Shown piece after piece: positions 4,812 through 31,039 of a stretch of 64,000 nucleotides of DNA. Source of the stretch: Pleomorphomonas sp. PLEO (GTDB lineage: Bacteria; Pseudomonadota; Alphaproteobacteria; Rhizobiales; Pleomorphomonadaceae). The notes beneath the pieces are model-generated. The model was not told the DNA's origin. It saw only the letters and a list, made by a program, of their open reading frames with translations, and made no database searches. The translations under genes were made by a program, and so were the position numbers. Each line of letters opens with the position of its first letter. Position 1 is the stretch's first letter. The stretch lies in NCBI RefSeq assembly GCF_041320595.1, contig NZ_CP166625.1:5020001-5084000 (forward strand), read 5' to 3'.

Positions 4812-5064
4812 TTTATTCGCACATATCTGCCAACAAGGTGGGCAGGTGGCTGTGGATAGCCGCAAAGGCTTGGTTTTGGTTTTCGGCTGACCCAATGGAT
4901 AGCGCGACCAACCGGCGACGCCGAAGCACGCGATTGCCGTCCCGGTAGGGGAAAAACCTCGAAATTGGGGACGAAGGCGCTCGGGATGGAGCCCTACACC
5001 GCCAACACGGGGGAGCTCCTCAAAACAGGGCGTTTGATCGTCAGCATCGGCGAAAAGCAAGAGT

Positions 5065-5118
5065 GGTCGATCGATGCCGGGTCAACGAGGAGGCCACTCT
5101 CGCCGGCATCGATCGACC
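5065..5118. repeat. 16-bp perfect inverted repeat
   Basis: GGTCGATCGATGCCGG at 5065-5080 is repeated in reverse complement at 5103-5118 with a 22-base loop. An overlapping alternative pairing exists between AGAGTGG (5060-5066) and CCACTCT (5094-5100). There is no T-run on either side, so it is not a typical rho-independent terminator. It lies between the end of pleD and the importer operon. Confidence 0.6.
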
Positions 5119-5480
5119 GACCCGACAAGACCAGGAGATGCGGCGGACCTGGCTTCACCGGGTTGTAGTTTGGAAAGCAACTGTATCTCTTTCCAAAATC
5201 TCATATAGTATCAACATTGTTGTTTTAGCTTTTTAACGAGTTGTTTACAACAACATCCTTACTCACCCCATGATTTCGGTGAGTTAATCATAAACAAGTA
5301 ACCTTAATTTCCGCGTTTGATGGATGACCGCATCTGGCAGACAAAGGGCCACATTGGGGATCCAGCACCGCTGCATCCTTTTGTTTTCTCGCACTCAACA
5401 GCCCAGAGGATCGTCGGATTCCCGGGCAGGCGCGGCGGTGTGTGGATCTCTTCAAGGTCCGCGACGGACTTGTCGTCTCG

Positions 5481-23903: not shown

Positions 23904-25289
23904 ATGCCCGTTCTCAGGAAACCCGCCCGCTCGGCGCTCGACCTGATTGGCGCTACGCCGGTTGTCGAACTCACGCGCTTCGACACCGGCCTTTGCCGCC
24001 TGTTCGTGAAGCTCGAAAGCGCCAACCCCGGCGGTTCCATCAAGGACCGCGTCGCCCTTTCGATGATTTCGGCCGCCGAGGCCGACGGCCGGTTAAAGCC
24101 CGGTGGCACGATCATCGAAGCGACCGCCGGCAACACCGGCCTCGGCCTCGCCCAGGTGGGCCTGCCCAAGGGCTACAAGGTTATTCTCGTTGTGCCCGAC
24201 AAGATGTCACGCGAGAAGATTGCCCACTTGCGCGCGCTCGGCACCGATGTCCGGATCACCCGCTCGGATGTCGGTAAAGGGCATCCCGCCTACTATCAAG
24301 ACATGGCCGAACGGCTCGCGAGCGAGCTCGGCGCTTTTTACGTCAACCAGTTCGCCAACCCGGCCAATCCCGCCGCCCACGAGACGACCACGGCGCCGGA
24401 GATCTTCGAGCAACTCGACGGCGATGTCGATGCCATCGTGGTCGGGGTCGGTTCGGGCGGCACGCTCTCCGGCATTGGCCGCTACTTCAAGCGGGTATCG
24501 CCAAAGACCGAGATGGTGCTGGCCGATCCCACCGGCTCGGTACTGGCACCACTCGTCAATACCGGCGAGCTGATCGAGGCAGGCTCCTGGGCCGTCGAGG
24601 GTATCGGCGAAGATTTCGTGCCGCCCAATTGCGACTTGTCTCTGGTGTCGGCCGCCTACACCGTTACCGACGCCGAGAGCTTCGCCGCCGCGCGCGAACT
24701 GTTGTCCAAGGAAGGCATTCTCGCCGGCTCGTCGTCAGGCACCCTGCTCGCCGCCGCGCTCAAATACTGCCGCGCGCAGACGGTACCCAAGCGCGTGGTG
24801 ACCCTCGTCTGCGACACCGGCGCCAAATACCTGTCCAAGGTTTACGATGATGGCTGGCTGGCCGAACAAGGCCTTGCCGATCGCCCGGTCCATGGCAACC
24901 TGTCCGATCTTGTCATCCGCCGCCAGCAGGATGGCTCAACGGTCACCGTCGCTCCCGACGATACGCTCGCCACCGCCTACAAGCGGATGCGGCAGGCCGA
25001 CGTTTCGCAGCTTCCCGTCGTCGCTGGCGGCCGCCTCGTCGGCATCCTTGATGAAGGCGATCTCTACGTGGCACTGGGGCGAGGGGCCGCTGCCGGCCAC
25101 GCCCGCTTCGGCGAGGCAGTGGGCGACCACATGATCACCGACTTGCACACGCTGCAGTCCGTCGACCCCGTCAGCGCCGCCCTCCCCCTGTTCGAGCGCG
25201 GCGAAGTCGCACTGGTGCTCGACGGCAGCGACTTCCTCGGCGTGGTCACACGCGTCGATCTCATCAATCACCTGAGGCTTCATTCGTGA
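23904..25289 (+). CDS. cbs: cystathionine beta-synthase with C-terminal CBS domains
   Basis: PLP enzyme of 461 residues that condenses homocysteine and serine to cystathionine. The catalytic part (1-330) carries the PLP lysine Lys47 in GGSIKDRVA, the substrate loop EATAGNTGLGLA and the phosphate-binding GVGSGGTLSG. Two CBS motifs follow (about 345-400 and 405-458). Unlike the human enzyme there is no N-terminal haem segment. Its stop overlaps the gamma-lyase start by four bases, giving the reverse transsulfuration pair. Cysteine synthase is less likely because of the CBS domains and the partner gene. Confidence 0.88.
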   Translation: MPVLRKPARSALDLIGATPVVELTRFDTGLCRLFVKLESANPGGSIKDRVALSMISAAEADGRLKPGGTIIEATAGNTGLGLAQVGLPKGYKVILVVPDKMSREKIAHLRALGTDVRITRSDVGKGHPAYYQDMAERLASELGAFYVNQFANPANPAAHETTTAPEIFEQLDGDVDAIVVGVGSGGTLSGIGRYFKRVSPKTEMVLADPTGSVLAPLVNTGELIEAGSWAVEGIGEDFVPPNCDLSLVSAAYTVTDAESFAAARELLSKEGILAGSSSGTLLAAALKYCRAQTVPKRVVTLVCDTGAKYLSKVYDDGWLAEQGLADRPVHGNLSDLVIRRQQDGSTVTVAPDDTLATAYKRMRQADVSQLPVVAGGRLVGILDEGDLYVALGRGAAAGHARFGEAVGDHMITDLHTLQSVDPVSAALPLFERGEVALVLDGSDFLGVVTRVDLINHLRLHS

Positions 25290-26464
25290 CCTACCAGCCC
25301 CCGCGCATCAATCACCGGCTCGCCTTCTCGACCCGCACCATCCACGGCGGCCAGAGCCACGACCCCACCACTGGCGCGGTCATGGTACCGATCTACGCCA
25401 CGTCCACCTTCGCCCAGACGAGCCCCGGCGTGCACAAGGGCTGGGAATACGGCCGCACCCACAACCCGACCCGGCAGGCCTTCGAGCGGGCCATAGCCGA
25501 TCTCGAGAGCGGCACCGCCGGCTTCGCCTTTGCCTCGGGCCTTGCCGCCATCGCCAATATCCTGGAAACGCTGGACCACGGCGCCCACATCGTCGCCTCT
25601 GACGACCTTTACGGCGGCACTTTCCGCCTGATCGACAAGGTGCGGCGGCGCTCGGCCGGCCTCGATGTCTCGTTCGCCGACTTCCGCGATCCCCAGGCCA
25701 TCGAGGCGGCGATCCGGCCAGAGACGAAGCTGATCTGGGTGGAAACGCCCACCAACCCGATGCTGAAGATCGTCGATCTGCAGACGATAGCTGCCATCGG
25801 CCGCAAGCACGGCATCGTCACCGTCGCCGACAACACCTTCGCCAGCCCCGCCATCCAGCGGCCGCTCGAACATGGCATTGACCTCGTCGTCCATTCGACG
25901 ACCAAATATCTCAATGGCCATTCCGACATGATCGGCGGCGCCGTGGTGGTCGGCGACAATGCCGAACTGAGGGAGCGCCTGACCTTTCTGCAGAACGCCG
26001 TCGGCGCGGTGTCCGGCCCGTTCGACAGCTTCCTGGCCCTACGCGGCCTCAAGACGCTTGCGCTGCGCATCGAGCGGCATTCGTCCAACGGACTGGCAAT
26101 CGCCCGCTTTCTCGAAGGCCGCAAGGACATCCGGCGGGTGATCTATCCCGGCCTCGAGAGCCACCCGCAGCATGCTCTGGCGAAAACGCAGATGTCAGCC
26201 TTTGGTGGCATCATCAGTGTCGAACTCGACCGCGACCTTCAGGGCACCAAGCGTTTCCTTGAAAACACCAAGCTGTTCACGCTGGCCGAAAGCCTCGGCG
26301 GTGTGGAGAGCCTGATCGAGCATCCGGCCATCATGACGCACGCTTCCATCCCGGCCGAGCAGCGGGCCGCGCTCGGCATTTCCGACGGTCTCGTCCGTCT
26401 GTCAGCCGGCATCGAGGATGGTAACGACCTGATCGACGATCTCAGGGCCGCTCTCGACGCCTGA
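25286..26464 (+). CDS. cystathionine gamma-lyase (or beta-lyase)
   Basis: PLP enzyme of the Cys/Met metabolism family, 392 residues. Visible are YGRTHNPTR (phosphate contact), the SGLAAI segment, the cofactor Asp in TVADNTFASP and the PLP lysine Lys207 in STTKYLNGHSD. The GTG start overlaps the cystathionine beta-synthase stop (GTGA), implying co-translation. Next to that enzyme, gamma-cleavage of cystathionine to cysteine is the natural reading. A conserved SLGGVESLIEHPA block agrees with gamma-lyase/gamma-synthase members. Confidence 0.88.
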   Translation: MTYQPPRINHRLAFSTRTIHGGQSHDPTTGAVMVPIYATSTFAQTSPGVHKGWEYGRTHNPTRQAFERAIADLESGTAGFAFASGLAAIANILETLDHGAHIVASDDLYGGTFRLIDKVRRRSAGLDVSFADFRDPQAIEAAIRPETKLIWVETPTNPMLKIVDLQTIAAIGRKHGIVTVADNTFASPAIQRPLEHGIDLVVHSTTKYLNGHSDMIGGAVVVGDNAELRERLTFLQNAVGAVSGPFDSFLALRGLKTLALRIERHSSNGLAIARFLEGRKDIRRVIYPGLESHPQHALAKTQMSAFGGIISVELDRDLQGTKRFLENTKLFTLAESLGGVESLIEHPAIMTHASIPAEQRAALGISDGLVRLSAGIEDGNDLIDDLRAALDA

Positions 26465-26516: not shown

Positions 26517-27620
26517 TCAGAGCGCCTCGGTACCCTCCGCCAGCTCGAGCCGCGGGGCTTGCTCGGCTCGGTCTTCCTTGCGCCTTGATACCGCCGCCGA
26601 TCGAATGTCAGCTGCGAGCTCGTCGACGCGCGCCGGATCGGCGTCCCAGGCGAACATGAACCGGGCGCCGCCACCGATGAAGGTATAGAAGCGCCAGCCT
26701 CGACGGCGCAGTTCGTCCAGCACCGGCTCCGGAGCGCTCAGAAACACTGAGTTCGCCTCTACCGGGAAGAGGAATTCGATGCCGGCCTCACCGGCAATCG
26801 CCGCCGCCAATCGCGCCGCGCAGGCATTGCCGTGACGAGCATTGCGGAGCCAGGCGCCACTTTCCAGCATGCCGATCCATGGCGCCGACAGGAACCGCAT
26901 TTTCGAGGCAAGCTGCCCGGCCTGCTTGCACCGATAGTCGAAATCCTCAGCCAAAGCCTTGTCGAAGAAGATGACGGCCTCACCAACGGCCATGCCGTTC
27001 TTGGTCCCGCCGAAACAAAGCACGTCGACTCCGGCCTGCCAGGACAACTCGGCGGGCGAACAGCCAAGCGCCGCGCAGGCATGGGCGAAGCGGGCACCGT
27101 CCATGTGCAACTTGAGCCCCAACTCCCGACAGACCGCAGCGATGGCTCGCACCTCATCAAGGCTATAGACGAGGCCGGTTTCGGTCGGCTGGGTGATGGT
27201 TACCACCCGGGGCTTGGGGAAGTGGATGTCGGATCGGCTGGTGGCCAATTCCCTGATAATCGCCGGCGTCAGCTTGAGCGATGTCTGGGGAGCAACGAGC
27301 AGCTTCGATCCGTTGGAAAAGAACTCAGGCGCGCCACACTCGTCAGTCTCCACATGCGCCGACGAGGCGCAGATGACGCTATGGAACGACTGGCAAAGAG
27401 ACGCCAAGGCCAGCGAATTGGCAGCGGTGCCGTTGAACACGAAAAAGACCTCGCAGTCCTTTTCAAAAAGATGTCGAAAAGCGTCGGCTGCGCGCTGGGT
27501 CCAGTGATCTTCGCCGTAGGCTATAGCCGATCCGCCGTTGGCCCGTTCCATCTCGGCCCAAGCCTCTGGACATATGCCGGCGTAATTGTCGCTTGCGAAC
27601 TGCTGGGCGGAATTGGCCAC
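26517..27620 (-). CDS. ltaE: low-specificity L-threonine aldolase (beta-eliminating lyase family)
   Basis: PLP fold-type-I enzyme of 367 residues, predicted to cleave L-threonine and L-allo-threonine to glycine and acetaldehyde. Motifs: FASDNYAGICPEAW at the N-terminus, SSAHVETDECGAPE, the cofactor Asp174 in HMDGARFAHA, and the PLP lysine Lys207 in CFGGTKNGMA. The start is GTG at 27620, preceded by AGAGGAAG. The start codon lies inside an 8-bp stem that can form with the leader (see the leader entry), so translation is probably regulated. It converges on the cystathionine gamma-lyase gene. Confidence 0.88.
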   Translation of the reverse strand: MANSAQQFASDNYAGICPEAWAEMERANGGSAIAYGEDHWTQRAADAFRHLFEKDCEVFFVFNGTAANSLALASLCQSFHSVICASSAHVETDECGAPEFFSNGSKLLVAPQTSLKLTPAIIRELATSRSDIHFPKPRVVTITQPTETGLVYSLDEVRAIAAVCRELGLKLHMDGARFAHACAALGCSPAELSWQAGVDVLCFGGTKNGMAVGEAVIFFDKALAEDFDYRCKQAGQLASKMRFLSAPWIGMLESGAWLRNARHGNACAARLAAAIAGEAGIEFLFPVEANSVFLSAPEPVLDELRRRGWRFYTFIGGGARFMFAWDADPARVDELAADIRSAAVSRRKEDRAEQAPRLELAEGTEAL

Positions 27621-27756
27621 GTGAACTTCCTCTCTTTCTCAGAAAGCGGAGCGACGCACGTGGCTGTAATCCCGTTGGTTGCCGGTCGGCCACATCCCCC
27701 TCTCGCGAAGGGCACCACCTTGCTCGGGAGCAGGTTGGTGTCGGGCGTCTCCCGAC
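27616..27756 (-). promoter_or_regulatory. structured 5' leader of ltaE with alternative start-codon hairpin
   Basis: On the minus strand five helices can be drawn. H1 is GTCGGG/CCCGAC (27756-27740). H2 is an 11-bp stem with TGCT-CCCG-AGCA tip (27740-27713). H3 is CCCT/AGGG (27712-27698). H4 is ATGTGGC (27695-27689) with GCCACGT (27664-27658), 7 pairs. H5 is GCCACGTG (27664-27657) with CACGTGGC (27623-27616), 8 perfect pairs that enclose the GTG start and put the ribosome site in its loop. H4 and H5 share one strand and exclude each other, the usual layout of a translational riboswitch. I match it to no class I know. Confidence 0.5.
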
Positions 27757-28245
27757 TCTTGATGCTTTACTGGCAATTACCACTAAGACAGGAAGCCGGC
27801 AACTGCTTGTCCCGGCCGAAACGAGCAATAGCGGCTCGGTCGCCGCGACGCGCATCACTGATCGAGCCCATACGGAACACATCGTATTCCGTTGCCTGAG
27901 CAATGGCTCCATCCTGTTCCACGCAGGTGCCATGCCGGTCTGCGTTACGAGCTCCCGCAGCTTGGCAGTTGCTCTCGCCCCAAAGCACGGCACAGCGGCG
28001 GCTTGCGGCATATCAAGTCGCAACGCTCAAAACTGGATATTCTTCGACCTTGAAGGGCGTAACTTGTCCCGATCATGGTCGCTCGACCGCACTATCGTCC
28101 GTGTTGACGTCGGTCGACGCAGATGGTCTTGAGCGACAAACGCGTTGCCTGTGATCGATCATCACACAGGCGGAACAATAAATCGCGCAGACGCGAAAGC
28201 AGGTCGGCGCGTATCAGAGAATTGGCTAGCAAGGGGATACGGAAT
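27757..28245. other. remaining intergenic region between ltaE leader and the next PLP gene
   Basis: About 490 bases. TTGCCG-N17-TAATTG (27802 to 27774 on the minus strand) is a weak promoter candidate placed just before the ltaE leader. No gene is supported; long open frames on the plus strand read through the structured leader and look artefactual. Confidence 0.35.
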
Positions 28246-29751
28246 ATGGCGCGGCTCGGTTTGGAACGTAACGTCGTCGACACACAGGTGCTAGACCGAA
28301 CCGTCGCTCGCCTAGGACAAGAGGGCGTGCTGCTGCCCACTCTCGGGCAGCTGGCGAACCCGACGACCATTCCCGACGGCGTGCGCCAGCGCCTCGCCAA
28401 CGTCGATCCCGACGTCGCAAACCCGCTCAACCTGTTTCGCGTGCATTGGTTCAACGACACGGCCCGCAGCGGTCTGACCGACACGCCTGTCTACGTCGAG
28501 GTTCCAAGCGAACTCACCGGCGTCAAGGCCCGCATCGTTCTCGCGCTCGGCAACCGCTTCCCGATGATCCGCGCCCACAAGGTGCTGGCGGCCTACGGCT
28601 GCCTCGTGCCGCGCCTCGTCACCGGCCAGTTCGATCCCAGCCATCACAAGGCGATTTGGCCGTCCACCGGCAACTACTGCCGCGGCGGCGTCGCCATCTC
28701 GCGCATTCTCGGCTGCCATGGCGTCGCCGTGCTGCCGGAGAACATGAGCCGCGAGCGCTTCGACTGGCTCGACAAGTGGGTGGTGGATAGCTCCGACGTC
28801 ATCAAGACGCCGGGCTCAGAAAGCAACGTCAAGGAAATCTATGACGAATGCGCCCGGCTCGACAGCGATGCCGACAACATTATCTTCAACCAGTTCTGCG
28901 AGTTCGGAAACTATCTCGTCCACCGCACCTGCACCGGCGCGGCGCTGGAGACGCTGTTCAAGGCGATCACCAAGGACCGTCCGGGCTCGAAACTTGCTGC
29001 CTTCGTTTCGGCCTCCGGATCGAGCGGCACGCTGGCGGCCGGCGACCACCTCAAGGAACGCCATGGCACGAAGATCGTCGTCGTCGAGGCGACCGAGTGC
29101 CCGACGCTGTTGGAAAACGGCTTCGGCGAGCACAACATTCAGGGCATCGGCGACAAGCACGTGCCCTACATCCACAACGTCATGAACACCGACATGGTGG
29201 CCGGCGTCAGCGACACCGACACCGATCGCTTGATCGTTCTGTTCAACACCGAAGTTGGCCGCAACTACCTCGTGGAGCGGCGTGGCATCGATCCGAAGCT
29301 GGTGGCGGAGCTCTCCAATCTCGGCTTGTCGTCGATCTGCAACATGCTGGCGGCTATCAAGACGGCCAAATACTACGACATGGGCCCGGATGACGTCATC
29401 GTCTCGCTGGCAACCGATGGCGCCGCCATGTACGGCAGCGAGATCGACAAGGTGATCAAGCGCGATTTCGGCAATAGGTTCGACACGGTGGCAGCGGGCG
29501 AGACCTGGGGCCGCTCGCTGGCAGCGGCATCGACCAGCGACCTGCTCGAAATGACCCATATCGACCGCAAGCGCGTGTTCAACCTCGGCTACTTCACCTG
29601 GGTGGAGCAGCAGGGCGTCGACATCGACGACTTCAAGGCCCGCGCCAAGCAATCCTACTGGGATGGTCTGCTCGATCTCGTGCCCGCCTGGGACGAAATG
29701 ATTGCCGACGTCAACGCCAAGAGCGGCGCCGCCAAGAAGCTGGGTCTCTAG
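28246..29751 (+). CDS. fold-type-II PLP-dependent enzyme of unknown reaction
   Basis: 501 residues, related to the tryptophan-synthase-beta/cysteine-synthase superfamily but larger. The PLP lysine is probably Lys112 in FPMIRAHKVLAAYG, the substrate loop WPSTGNYCRGG corresponds to the STGN-type loop, and SASGSSGTLAAG is the phosphate-binding glycine loop. A domain after about residue 390 (DMGPDDVIVSLATDGAAMYG) completes it. The start at 28246 has AAGGGG upstream; the frame is open earlier but reads as non-protein. Four bases separate it from the next PLP gene, so they form a pair. The substrate is unknown; a lyase or synthase on an amino acid is likely. Confidence 0.75.
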   Translation: MARLGLERNVVDTQVLDRTVARLGQEGVLLPTLGQLANPTTIPDGVRQRLANVDPDVANPLNLFRVHWFNDTARSGLTDTPVYVEVPSELTGVKARIVLALGNRFPMIRAHKVLAAYGCLVPRLVTGQFDPSHHKAIWPSTGNYCRGGVAISRILGCHGVAVLPENMSRERFDWLDKWVVDSSDVIKTPGSESNVKEIYDECARLDSDADNIIFNQFCEFGNYLVHRTCTGAALETLFKAITKDRPGSKLAAFVSASGSSGTLAAGDHLKERHGTKIVVVEATECPTLLENGFGEHNIQGIGDKHVPYIHNVMNTDMVAGVSDTDTDRLIVLFNTEVGRNYLVERRGIDPKLVAELSNLGLSSICNMLAAIKTAKYYDMGPDDVIVSLATDGAAMYGSEIDKVIKRDFGNRFDTVAAGETWGRSLAAASTSDLLEMTHIDRKRVFNLGYFTWVEQQGVDIDDFKARAKQSYWDGLLDLVPAWDEMIADVNAKSGAAKKLGL

Positions 29752-29755
29752 GGCC

Positions 29756-31039
29756 ATGGTGATGTTTCGTTGCCACGGCTGCGGTGCCGAGGTCGATGCC
29801 GGCGTTCGGTTGGCGTTCCGCTGTCCGAATTCCAGCTTGGGCGGCGATGACGTCGACCATGTGCTCGCGGTCAAGAGCGAAGCGCCGTCGCCGTCAATCG
29901 GCAACGAAACCGACCCTTTCCTGCGCTACCGAGCCTGGCTTTCTCCCTACCGGTTGGCGCGGTCATCAGGGCTTGCCGACTCCGCCTGGGGAGATCTTGT
30001 CGGCCAGCTCGACCAGGCCCTGACGGCCATTGACGGGCGCGGCTTCCGGGTTACGCCGATGGCTGACCAGCGTCCGCTCGCAGAAGCTATTGGTCTGCCA
30101 GGAGCGCTGTGGGTCAAGGACGAAACCCACAACGTGTCGGGCTCCCACAAGGCGCGTCATCTGATGGGTGTGATGCTCTACCTGCGCATCCTGGAGGCAG
30201 CCCGATTGCCGGCCGGCGAAAACCTTCGGGCGCGGCGGCTGGCAATCGCGTCTTGTGGCAACGCGGCCCTTGCCGCCGCTGTCGTGGCGCGGGCAGCGGA
30301 GTGGCCGCTGGATGTGTTCATCCCGCCCGACGCCGACATGTCGGTAAAGGCACGGCTGAAGGAGCTCGGTGCCCAGATCACCATCTGCGATCGACGCTCA
30401 GGTGAGGCTGGCGATCCCTGCTACCTGCGCTTCCGCGAGGCCGTCGCCTCCGGCGCCATTCCCTTTGGTGTACAAGGCACCGACAACGGGTTGGCGATCG
30501 AGGGCGGTCGCACGCTTGCCTTCGAGATGGCGGAAGAGTTCAGCCGGGTCGGCACGGTGCCTGATGCGCTATTCGTTCAAGTCGGCGGCGGAGCGTTGGC
30601 TAGCGCACTGGCGCAGGGTCTGGCACTGGCGCACGCGAACGGGCTGCTATCGTCGCTTCCCAAGCTGTTCGCCGTCCAGACGGCCGGCTGCGCGCCGTTG
30701 GCCCGCGCCTGGGAGCGCCTCAGCGGGGTAGACCTCCCAACAGCGGTGAGAACGCGATCACAGTTCATGTGGCCCTGGGAAACGACGCCGGTCAGCCTCG
30801 CGCATGGCATTCTCGACGACGAAACCTATGACTGGTGGTCCATTGCCGAGGGTATGCGCGCAAGCGGGGGCTCGACCGTCGTCGTCGACGAGACCCAAGT
30901 CTCGGCGGCCCATAAGGCCGGGCGCCTGCATACCGATATCGTCGCGTCGGCGACCGGAACCGCGGGCCTTGCCGGCGTGATCGCCAAGCCCGAGGCTGGC
31001 AAGCAGATCGCAGTGATTTTTTCCGGCATCGAGAGATAG
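29756..31039 (+). CDS. threonine synthase-like PLP enzyme with Cys-containing N-terminus
   Basis: 427 residues. A short zinc-ribbon-like start (FRCHGCGAEV, then FRCPNS; Cys6, Cys9, Cys23, but the fourth Cys is Ser or absent) precedes a fold-type-II PLP domain with Lys132 in NVSGSHKARHLMG, IASCGNAALAAA as substrate loop and VQVGGGALASAL as phosphate loop. The SHKAR in place of SFKxR and the incomplete ribbon separate it from ordinary threonine synthase. It is translated just after the 501-residue PLP enzyme and ends before a strong shared terminator. Threonine synthase, diaminopropionate lyase or a related lyase are options. Confidence 0.75.
   Translation: MVMFRCHGCGAEVDAGVRLAFRCPNSSLGGDDVDHVLAVKSEAPSPSIGNETDPFLRYRAWLSPYRLARSSGLADSAWGDLVGQLDQALTAIDGRGFRVTPMADQRPLAEAIGLPGALWVKDETHNVSGSHKARHLMGVMLYLRILEAARLPAGENLRARRLAIASCGNAALAAAVVARAAEWPLDVFIPPDADMSVKARLKELGAQITICDRRSGEAGDPCYLRFREAVASGAIPFGVQGTDNGLAIEGGRTLAFEMAEEFSRVGTVPDALFVQVGGGALASALAQGLALAHANGLLSSLPKLFAVQTAGCAPLARAWERLSGVDLPTAVRTRSQFMWPWETTPVSLAHGILDDETYDWWSIAEGMRASGGSTVVVDETQVSAAHKAGRLHTDIVASATGTAGLAGVIAKPEAGKQIAVIFSGIER

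Follow-up and report, generated by a model that had tools for sequence, protein, structure and literature searches.

A SAM-I/IV riboswitch in the leader of an alphaproteobacterial threonine aldolase gene, and a proposed strand exchange controlling its translation

The leader of ltaE, which encodes an L-threonine aldolase in Pleomorphomonas sp. PLEO, is a member of the SAM-I/IV riboswitch class, and we think it probable that this riboswitch controls ltaE translation by strand exchange. When the window, meaning the whole 64,000-nucleotide stretch of DNA that was analysed, was scanned with cmscan, minus-strand positions 27770-27665 matched the SAM-I/IV aptamer RF01725 with 55.9 bits, against a gathering cut-off of 41.1 (E 1.7e-6), and the match covered model positions 1-99 of 99 without truncation. 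Because a full-length match over the cut-off places the leader in a described class, the expected ligand, by class membership, would be SAM. SAM is predicted to act as the OFF signal. In a permissive scan of 27400-27950, no Rfam family besides RF01725 was returned at E up to 10, and a genome-wide scan found no second RF01725 match, leaving the ltaE leader as the sole one in this genome.

The original prediction, of a translational riboswitch-like leader whose alternative pairings over the threonine aldolase start exclude each other, is in our judgement right. It had also placed the leader outside the known classes, with an Rfam hit to a described class named as the result that would overturn this, and RF01725 is such a hit. 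Its three consecutive stems correspond to P2, P3 and P4 in the Rfam model for SAM-I/IV. The resemblance to SAM-I/IV that it pointed out was real, although it was set aside over the order of the elements. The Rfam alignment shows P1-P2-P3-P4-P5 in the order of the model, together with the conserved core segments CATCAAGAG, CAACCTG, AAGGTGG and GATG. A new class sensing threonine, glycine or a one-carbon metabolite, the ligands proposed at that time, would fit the function of the gene, but the leader's class points to SAM instead. The SAM-core segments align, RF01725 is matched at full length over the cut-off and as the only family, and the aptamer is shared with sister leaders of metA-like genes at 17 of 107 loci. 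We regard a new class as hardly credible, and it was ruled out by the Rfam match.

Following the Rfam structure line, the strands of P1 are GCATC (27765-27761) and GATGT (27696-27692), and P5 is the hairpin GCC-GACC-GGC (27690-27681), all on the minus strand. The Rfam alignment gives P2 as the hairpin GTCGGG-AGACG-CCCGAC (27756-27740), with GTCGGG at 27756-27751 and CCCGAC at 27745-27740. The P3 loop TCCCG (27729-27725) is complementary to CGGGA (27674-27670, a position read from the sequence), and the two were assigned as the 5′ and 3′ strands of PK-2 with the support of an own-versus-swapped test described below. From the end of the aptamer to the GTG start of ltaE there is a linker of 44 nt.

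The gene itself (26517-27620, minus strand, 367 aa, GTG start) encodes a protein that matches Pfam Beta_elim_lyase with 204.8 bits, over the cut-off, and whose nearest solved structure is the L-threonine aldolase 5vye (E 5.2e-172, residues 1-342), which we take to be the Pseudomonas putida enzyme. Its scores lie below the NCBIfam equivalog cut-offs (45.4 versus 312 bits for PRK10534.1 and 64.3 versus 230 for GntG), and, judged by sequence comparison, LtaE groups with 5vye in the other branch of threonine aldolases, outside these two models. The same genome has a second threonine aldolase, 48% identical (G000:C1:1294883-1295818), the RF01725 match being instead at the ltaE of the window; a paralogous aldolase of 42-48% identity occurs in 13 of 14 same-genus genomes. 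Convergent to ltaE on the plus strand lie a cystathionine beta-synthase-like gene (23904-25289) and a cystathionine gamma-synthase/lyase-like gene (25286-26464), and this cystathionine-type pair (23904-26464) was not found in the stretches examined around other ltaE loci outside the genus. Divergent from ltaE are two plus-strand PALP-type genes (28123-29751 and 29702-31039) with weak cysteine-synthase-like and threonine-synthase-like matches; the first, whose true start is probably near 28241, adjoins ltaE in eight same-genus loci (L001-L008). A promoter scan found none, and a small RNA of the Rfam Atu_C6/EcpR1 family (68.7 bits, cut-off 60) lies further off at 5060-5165 on the minus strand.

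The segments on which the original prediction was built are all present at the coordinates it gave. ATGTGGC (27695-27689), which spans the P1 3′ strand and the P5 5′ strand, can pair with GCCACGT (27664-27658) at the start of the linker, and the overlapping GCCACGTG (27664-27657) can form an 8-bp hairpin with CACGTGGC (27623-27616), which contains the GTG start codon (27620-27618); GCCACGTG would thereby serve as a strand in either helix. A Shine-Dalgarno-like GAGAGGAAG lies at 27634-27626. The ON helix first described is the inner half only, and the outer half had been missed: here GCGTCGCTCCGCTTTC (27657-27642) pairs at 13 of 16 positions with AAGAGTCGGGAGACGC (27760-27745), that is, with J1/2, the P2 5′ arm and the P2 loop, or else, in part, with the ribosome site. 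On the linker the inner and outer helices are contiguous, 27664-27658 pairing with 27695-27689 and then 27657-27642 with 27760-27745, and AAGAGTCGGGAGACGC, identified by complementarity and by swap tests, is the segment with which we propose the linker pairs when SAM is absent.

In the strand exchange that we propose, binding of SAM would lock P1, P2, P3, P5 and PK-2 and leave the 44-nt linker free to pair with the Shine-Dalgarno and start region, turning translation OFF. Without SAM, GCCACGT would pair with ATGTGGC, undoing P1 and P5, and the adjoining GCGTCGCTCCGCTTTC would pair with J1/2, the 5′ arm of P2 and the P2 loop, opening P2; the linker would then be taken up by the aptamer and the ribosome site freed, turning translation ON. 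The exchange would presumably take place within the time scale of transcription. The metabolic sense may be that when SAM is low more threonine is cleaved, the glycine produced supplying one-carbon units for methionine.

Taken by itself, the sequence of the window is only mildly unusual. When the 157-nt leader was shuffled with its dinucleotides preserved, 13 of 200 shuffles contained a perfect 8-bp helix, as did 7 of 500 for the 71-nt 3′ part alone, and this 3′ part folds with ordinary energy (z -0.93); the weight therefore rests on the Rfam match and on the relatives. In the other seven same-genus leaders, GACGTGAC replaces CACGTGGC, and the pairs between linker and start differ when these leaders are folded. 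The perfect 8-bp OFF hairpin is thus peculiar to this genome within its genus, and what is conserved of the OFF helix as first described is pairing in general between the linker and the ribosome site.

For the study of relatives, 78 of 79 RF01725 places in a draw of genomes from the order were used (G153 was left out), as were 30 of 39 in a draw from the class (nine without a locus were left out). The leaders came to 129 in total, and after removal of four duplicates and of two without the P1 3′ pattern (L127 and L144), 123 were kept; tests that depend on the start codon used 32 of the 36 ltaE leaders and 16 of the 17 metA leaders. Each of eight 16-nt aptamer segments was then compared with the linker, duplex energies being set against those of dinucleotide shuffles. 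The J1/2-P2 5′ arm and loop paired with the whole linker better than expected in ltaE leaders (mean z -1.73, p<=0.05 in 18 of 36), and the corresponding values were -1.10 in metA leaders (5 of 17), -3.03 in leaders of genes for short proteins (23 of 34) and -2.13 in the remaining leaders (19 of 36). The other seven segments gave z near zero against the whole linker. Duplex energy, which allows mismatches, had replaced a longest-unbroken-match statistic after the latter gave a weak first result for ltaE leaders (5 of 36), the short-protein leaders having been strong by that measure (26 of 27).

In the own-versus-swapped test, linkers were exchanged between leaders with different P2 arms, and the change in duplex energy was scored. 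The residual was -2.26 kcal/mol in ltaE leaders (22 classes; p about 5e-5, a value which, like the other p values given here, is optimistic because the leaders are related) and -2.94 kcal/mol in all leaders (63 classes), and for metA alone the swap cost 1.08 kcal/mol (p 0.07). The controls were null, with p 0.17 for P1 3′/P5, 0.48 for P3 5′, 0.47 for P3 3′ and 0.61 for P2 3′. Linkers also suited their own ribosome sites better than those of other leaders (p about 0.002 for ltaE and 0.008 for metA), and at least three linker bases were common to both helices in 25 of 32 ltaE and 15 of 16 metA leaders. These results show, as far as comparison of sequences goes, co-evolution of the linker both with its ribosome site and with the aptamer segment made up of J1/2, the P2 5′ arm and the loop. 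Covariation among ltaE leaders, which the original prediction had proposed to look for, is seen in the outer half of the ON helix (J1/2-P2 5′ arm with linker).

Individual leaders follow the same pattern, the altered P2 loops of L049 and L045 being met by correspondingly altered linkers, and the enlarged P2 loop of L197, an ltaE leader from another family, matching its own linker over 11 nt (a match of at least 10 nt arose in 10 of 5000 shuffles). The L197 match consists of the enlarged loop plus one stem base, and for many ltaE leaders the core of the loop, GACGC with GCGTC, gives the best unbroken match, as would be expected if the linker formed a pseudoknot with the P2 loop only, leaving the P2 stem intact, and if this loop contact itself competed with the start-site hairpin. 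In other leaders, however, the match spans the P2 5′ arm (10-13 unbroken pairs in L004, L005 and L045, and 13 of 14 in L049 by eye), which is incompatible with an intact P2 stem, and the neighbouring GUGGC:GCCAC helix undoes P1/P5. We consider this pseudoknot an unlikely, though not negligible, substitute for strand exchange.

The inner ON helix is kept in relatives: when GATGTGGC was compared with the first 18 nt of the linker, a limit picked after the leaders had been inspected, mean z was -2.22 in ltaE leaders, with p<=0.05 in 19 of 32, and p<=0.05 was reached in 7 of 16 metA leaders. Over its whole length the linker yielded no signal with GATGTGGC, which represents P1 3′/P5 (mean z -0.17, 2 of 36 ltaE leaders). 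P1 3′/P5 was accordingly rejected as the sole ON partner, its signal appearing only with the 18-nt limit.

The PK-2 pairing, TCCCG with CGGGA in the window, is itself supported by the own-versus-swapped test (p 0.0002 in 123 leaders and 74 classes; p 0.024 within the 36 ltaE leaders), and the paper on the SAM-I/IV structure reportedly describes PK-2 as part of the regulatory switch. Control might thus act through PK-2/P5 near the start only, with the downstream hairpin incidental or constitutive, and it would agree with this that the genus has not retained the 8-bp hairpin, whose energy is ordinary. PK-2 nevertheless ends 36 nt ahead of the Shine-Dalgarno-like sequence, and the linker shows co-evolution with both ribosome site and P2 arm, so that control through PK-2 and P5 only appears improbable to us.

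Constrained folds were compared with the strand exchange that we favour. With the outer helix imposed, GUGGC:GCCAC formed with at least four pairs in 30 of 32 ltaE and 15 of 16 metA leaders. The ribosome site was then more open than in the bound-like fold, at 0.54 versus 0.32 for ltaE (more open in 30 of 32) and 0.50 versus 0.27 for metA (15 of 16), a difference that is partly built in because the constraint itself occupies the linker. A simple comparison of free and bound folds without the 5′ half of the aptamer gave no difference (0.33 versus 0.32). For the window leader the energies were -67.4 unconstrained, -56.5 for ON and -59.8 for OFF. The free minimum was the ON fold in 6 of 32 ltaE and 2 of 16 metA leaders, and the imposed ON fold equalled or bettered OFF in 22 of 32 and 6 of 16, respectively. 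Since the free minimum is seldom the ON fold, and in the window the predicted minimum is OFF-like, the strand exchange would have to be kinetic. Folding energy was discarded as proof, the 3′ part being not unusually stable (mean z -0.37 in 32 ltaE and -0.74 in 16 metA leaders).

Within the genus, RF01725 was found over the cut-off in 8 of 14 genomes, one copy each, and in none of the six other genomes of the family; Pleomorphomonas sp. JP5 (L039), a strain of this genus, and the same-genus L006 have the same leader. A decayed or non-functional aptamer might be suspected from the six same-genus genomes without RF01725, but these six also lack a gene at least 90% identical to ltaE, and in the window both the score and PK-2 are intact, which makes decay very improbable. 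The eight genomes with the riboswitch are exactly the eight with an ltaE at least 90% identical, and gene and riboswitch seem to have been gained or lost together. One same-genus genome without an RF01725 match has a copy of ltaE that is 77% identical and contains a single in-frame TAG (G011:C26:21678-22718).

Among LtaE relatives, of which the best 80 of 595 were scanned, RF01725 lies just upstream of ltaE in 22, with 15, 6, 1 and 0 in the four sets of 20 that were scanned, the hosts being Sphingomonas and its kin, Asticcacaulis, Methylobacterium, Acetobacter, one member of the Rhodocyclaceae and one of the Granulosicoccaceae. When 82 LtaE rows were arranged in a tree, the 24 with the riboswitch (these 22, the window and L197) fall within one weakly supported group of 27, and the riboswitch label requires 4 changes, against a mean of 21.1 when shuffled (none of 500 shuffles was as low). 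Inside this part of the tree, L051, L057 and L093 have no RF01725 match even at E 10.

More widely, RF01725 was over the cut-off in 76 of 397 genomes drawn from the order, 35 of 385 from the class and 19 of 398 from the phylum, these draws overlapping. The downstream frame at 107 loci was LtaE in 15, metA-like in 17 (with an HTS domain in the example scanned) and a short protein in 30, the rest being mixed or mispicked; the short proteins, from Hyphomicrobiales, had no Pfam match in the two representatives scanned. By eye, the linker GCGCCAGTCCTCCT of the short-protein leaders (L009, L012, L014, L022 and others) pairs at 13 of 14 positions with AGAAGGGCTGGCGC of J1/2-P2 and also holds an anti-Shine-Dalgarno, making these the clearest case of a P2-arm switch.

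We lean, cautiously, towards an undescribed SAM-I/IV platform that would be widespread in Alphaproteobacteria and whose downstream strand would carry a copy-like complement of J1/2-P2 sequence, namely of the 5′ arm and loop of P2. Without SAM this strand would unzip P2 and P1/P5 together; with SAM it would sequester the ribosome site. Such a platform would bring a bacterial threonine aldolase into the SAM regulon. Among phylum-draw leaders beyond the main set, the pairing reached p<0.05 in 2 of 8. Outside Alphaproteobacteria, inspection by eye gave L193 the look of direct occlusion, its Shine-Dalgarno seemingly lying in the aptamer tail, and L189 and L192 appeared terminator-like. This count and these other types indicate that the P2-arm platform is not universal.

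If the strand exchange holds, SAM would govern the cleavage of threonine to glycine in several groups of Alphaproteobacteria and in a few others, which would connect the metabolism of threonine, one-carbon units and methionine. As of 2021, according to passages of one report, riboswitch control had yet to be found for any bacterial threonine aldolase (PMC8216456), and on that statement the target gene appears to be new for riboswitches. Passages of an account of methionine regulation in Proteobacteria mention neither ltaE nor an aldolase (PMC4239095), and a literature search for threonine aldolase with SAM riboswitch, in which the slash in SAM-I/IV limits searching by term, returned no paper on such control. 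A conserved RNA structure does occur on a threonine aldolase gene in yeast, in the GLY1 3′ UTR, as noted in a passage of PMC8216456, but it is eukaryotic, lies in a 3′ UTR and is unrelated in structure.

Other SAM riboswitches share features with the window leader. SAM-II (SAM_alpha) of Alphaproteobacteria likewise sits on methionine genes such as metA (PMC4239095), but it differs in fold, and the Rfam scan gave no SAM-II match in the window leader. Passages of PMC6890682 place SAM-I (S-box) and SAM-IV in one clan with SAM-I/IV by their common SAM-binding core, SAM-I differing by a kink-turn and PK-1 and by the absence of PK-2, and SAM-IV by having no P4. The window leader resembles SAM-I/IV itself (RF01725; crystal structure 4L81) in having P1, a P2 without internal loop, P3, P4, P5 and PK-2, as set out in parts of PMC6890682 and PMC2864571. 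According to one review, the first helix is where a switching sequence is most often located (PMC10907184), so by that account the use of P2 would be less usual. The crystallised SAM-I/IV RNA, in the description excerpted from PMC5393176, carries a P2 loop of GAGA type and extends no further than PK-2; the window leader, in contrast, adds an apparent platform for strand exchange of the linker onto P2/P5, the P2 loop included, and the co-evolution of linker and P2 arm offers a testable switching model for a class whose solved structures stop at PK-2.
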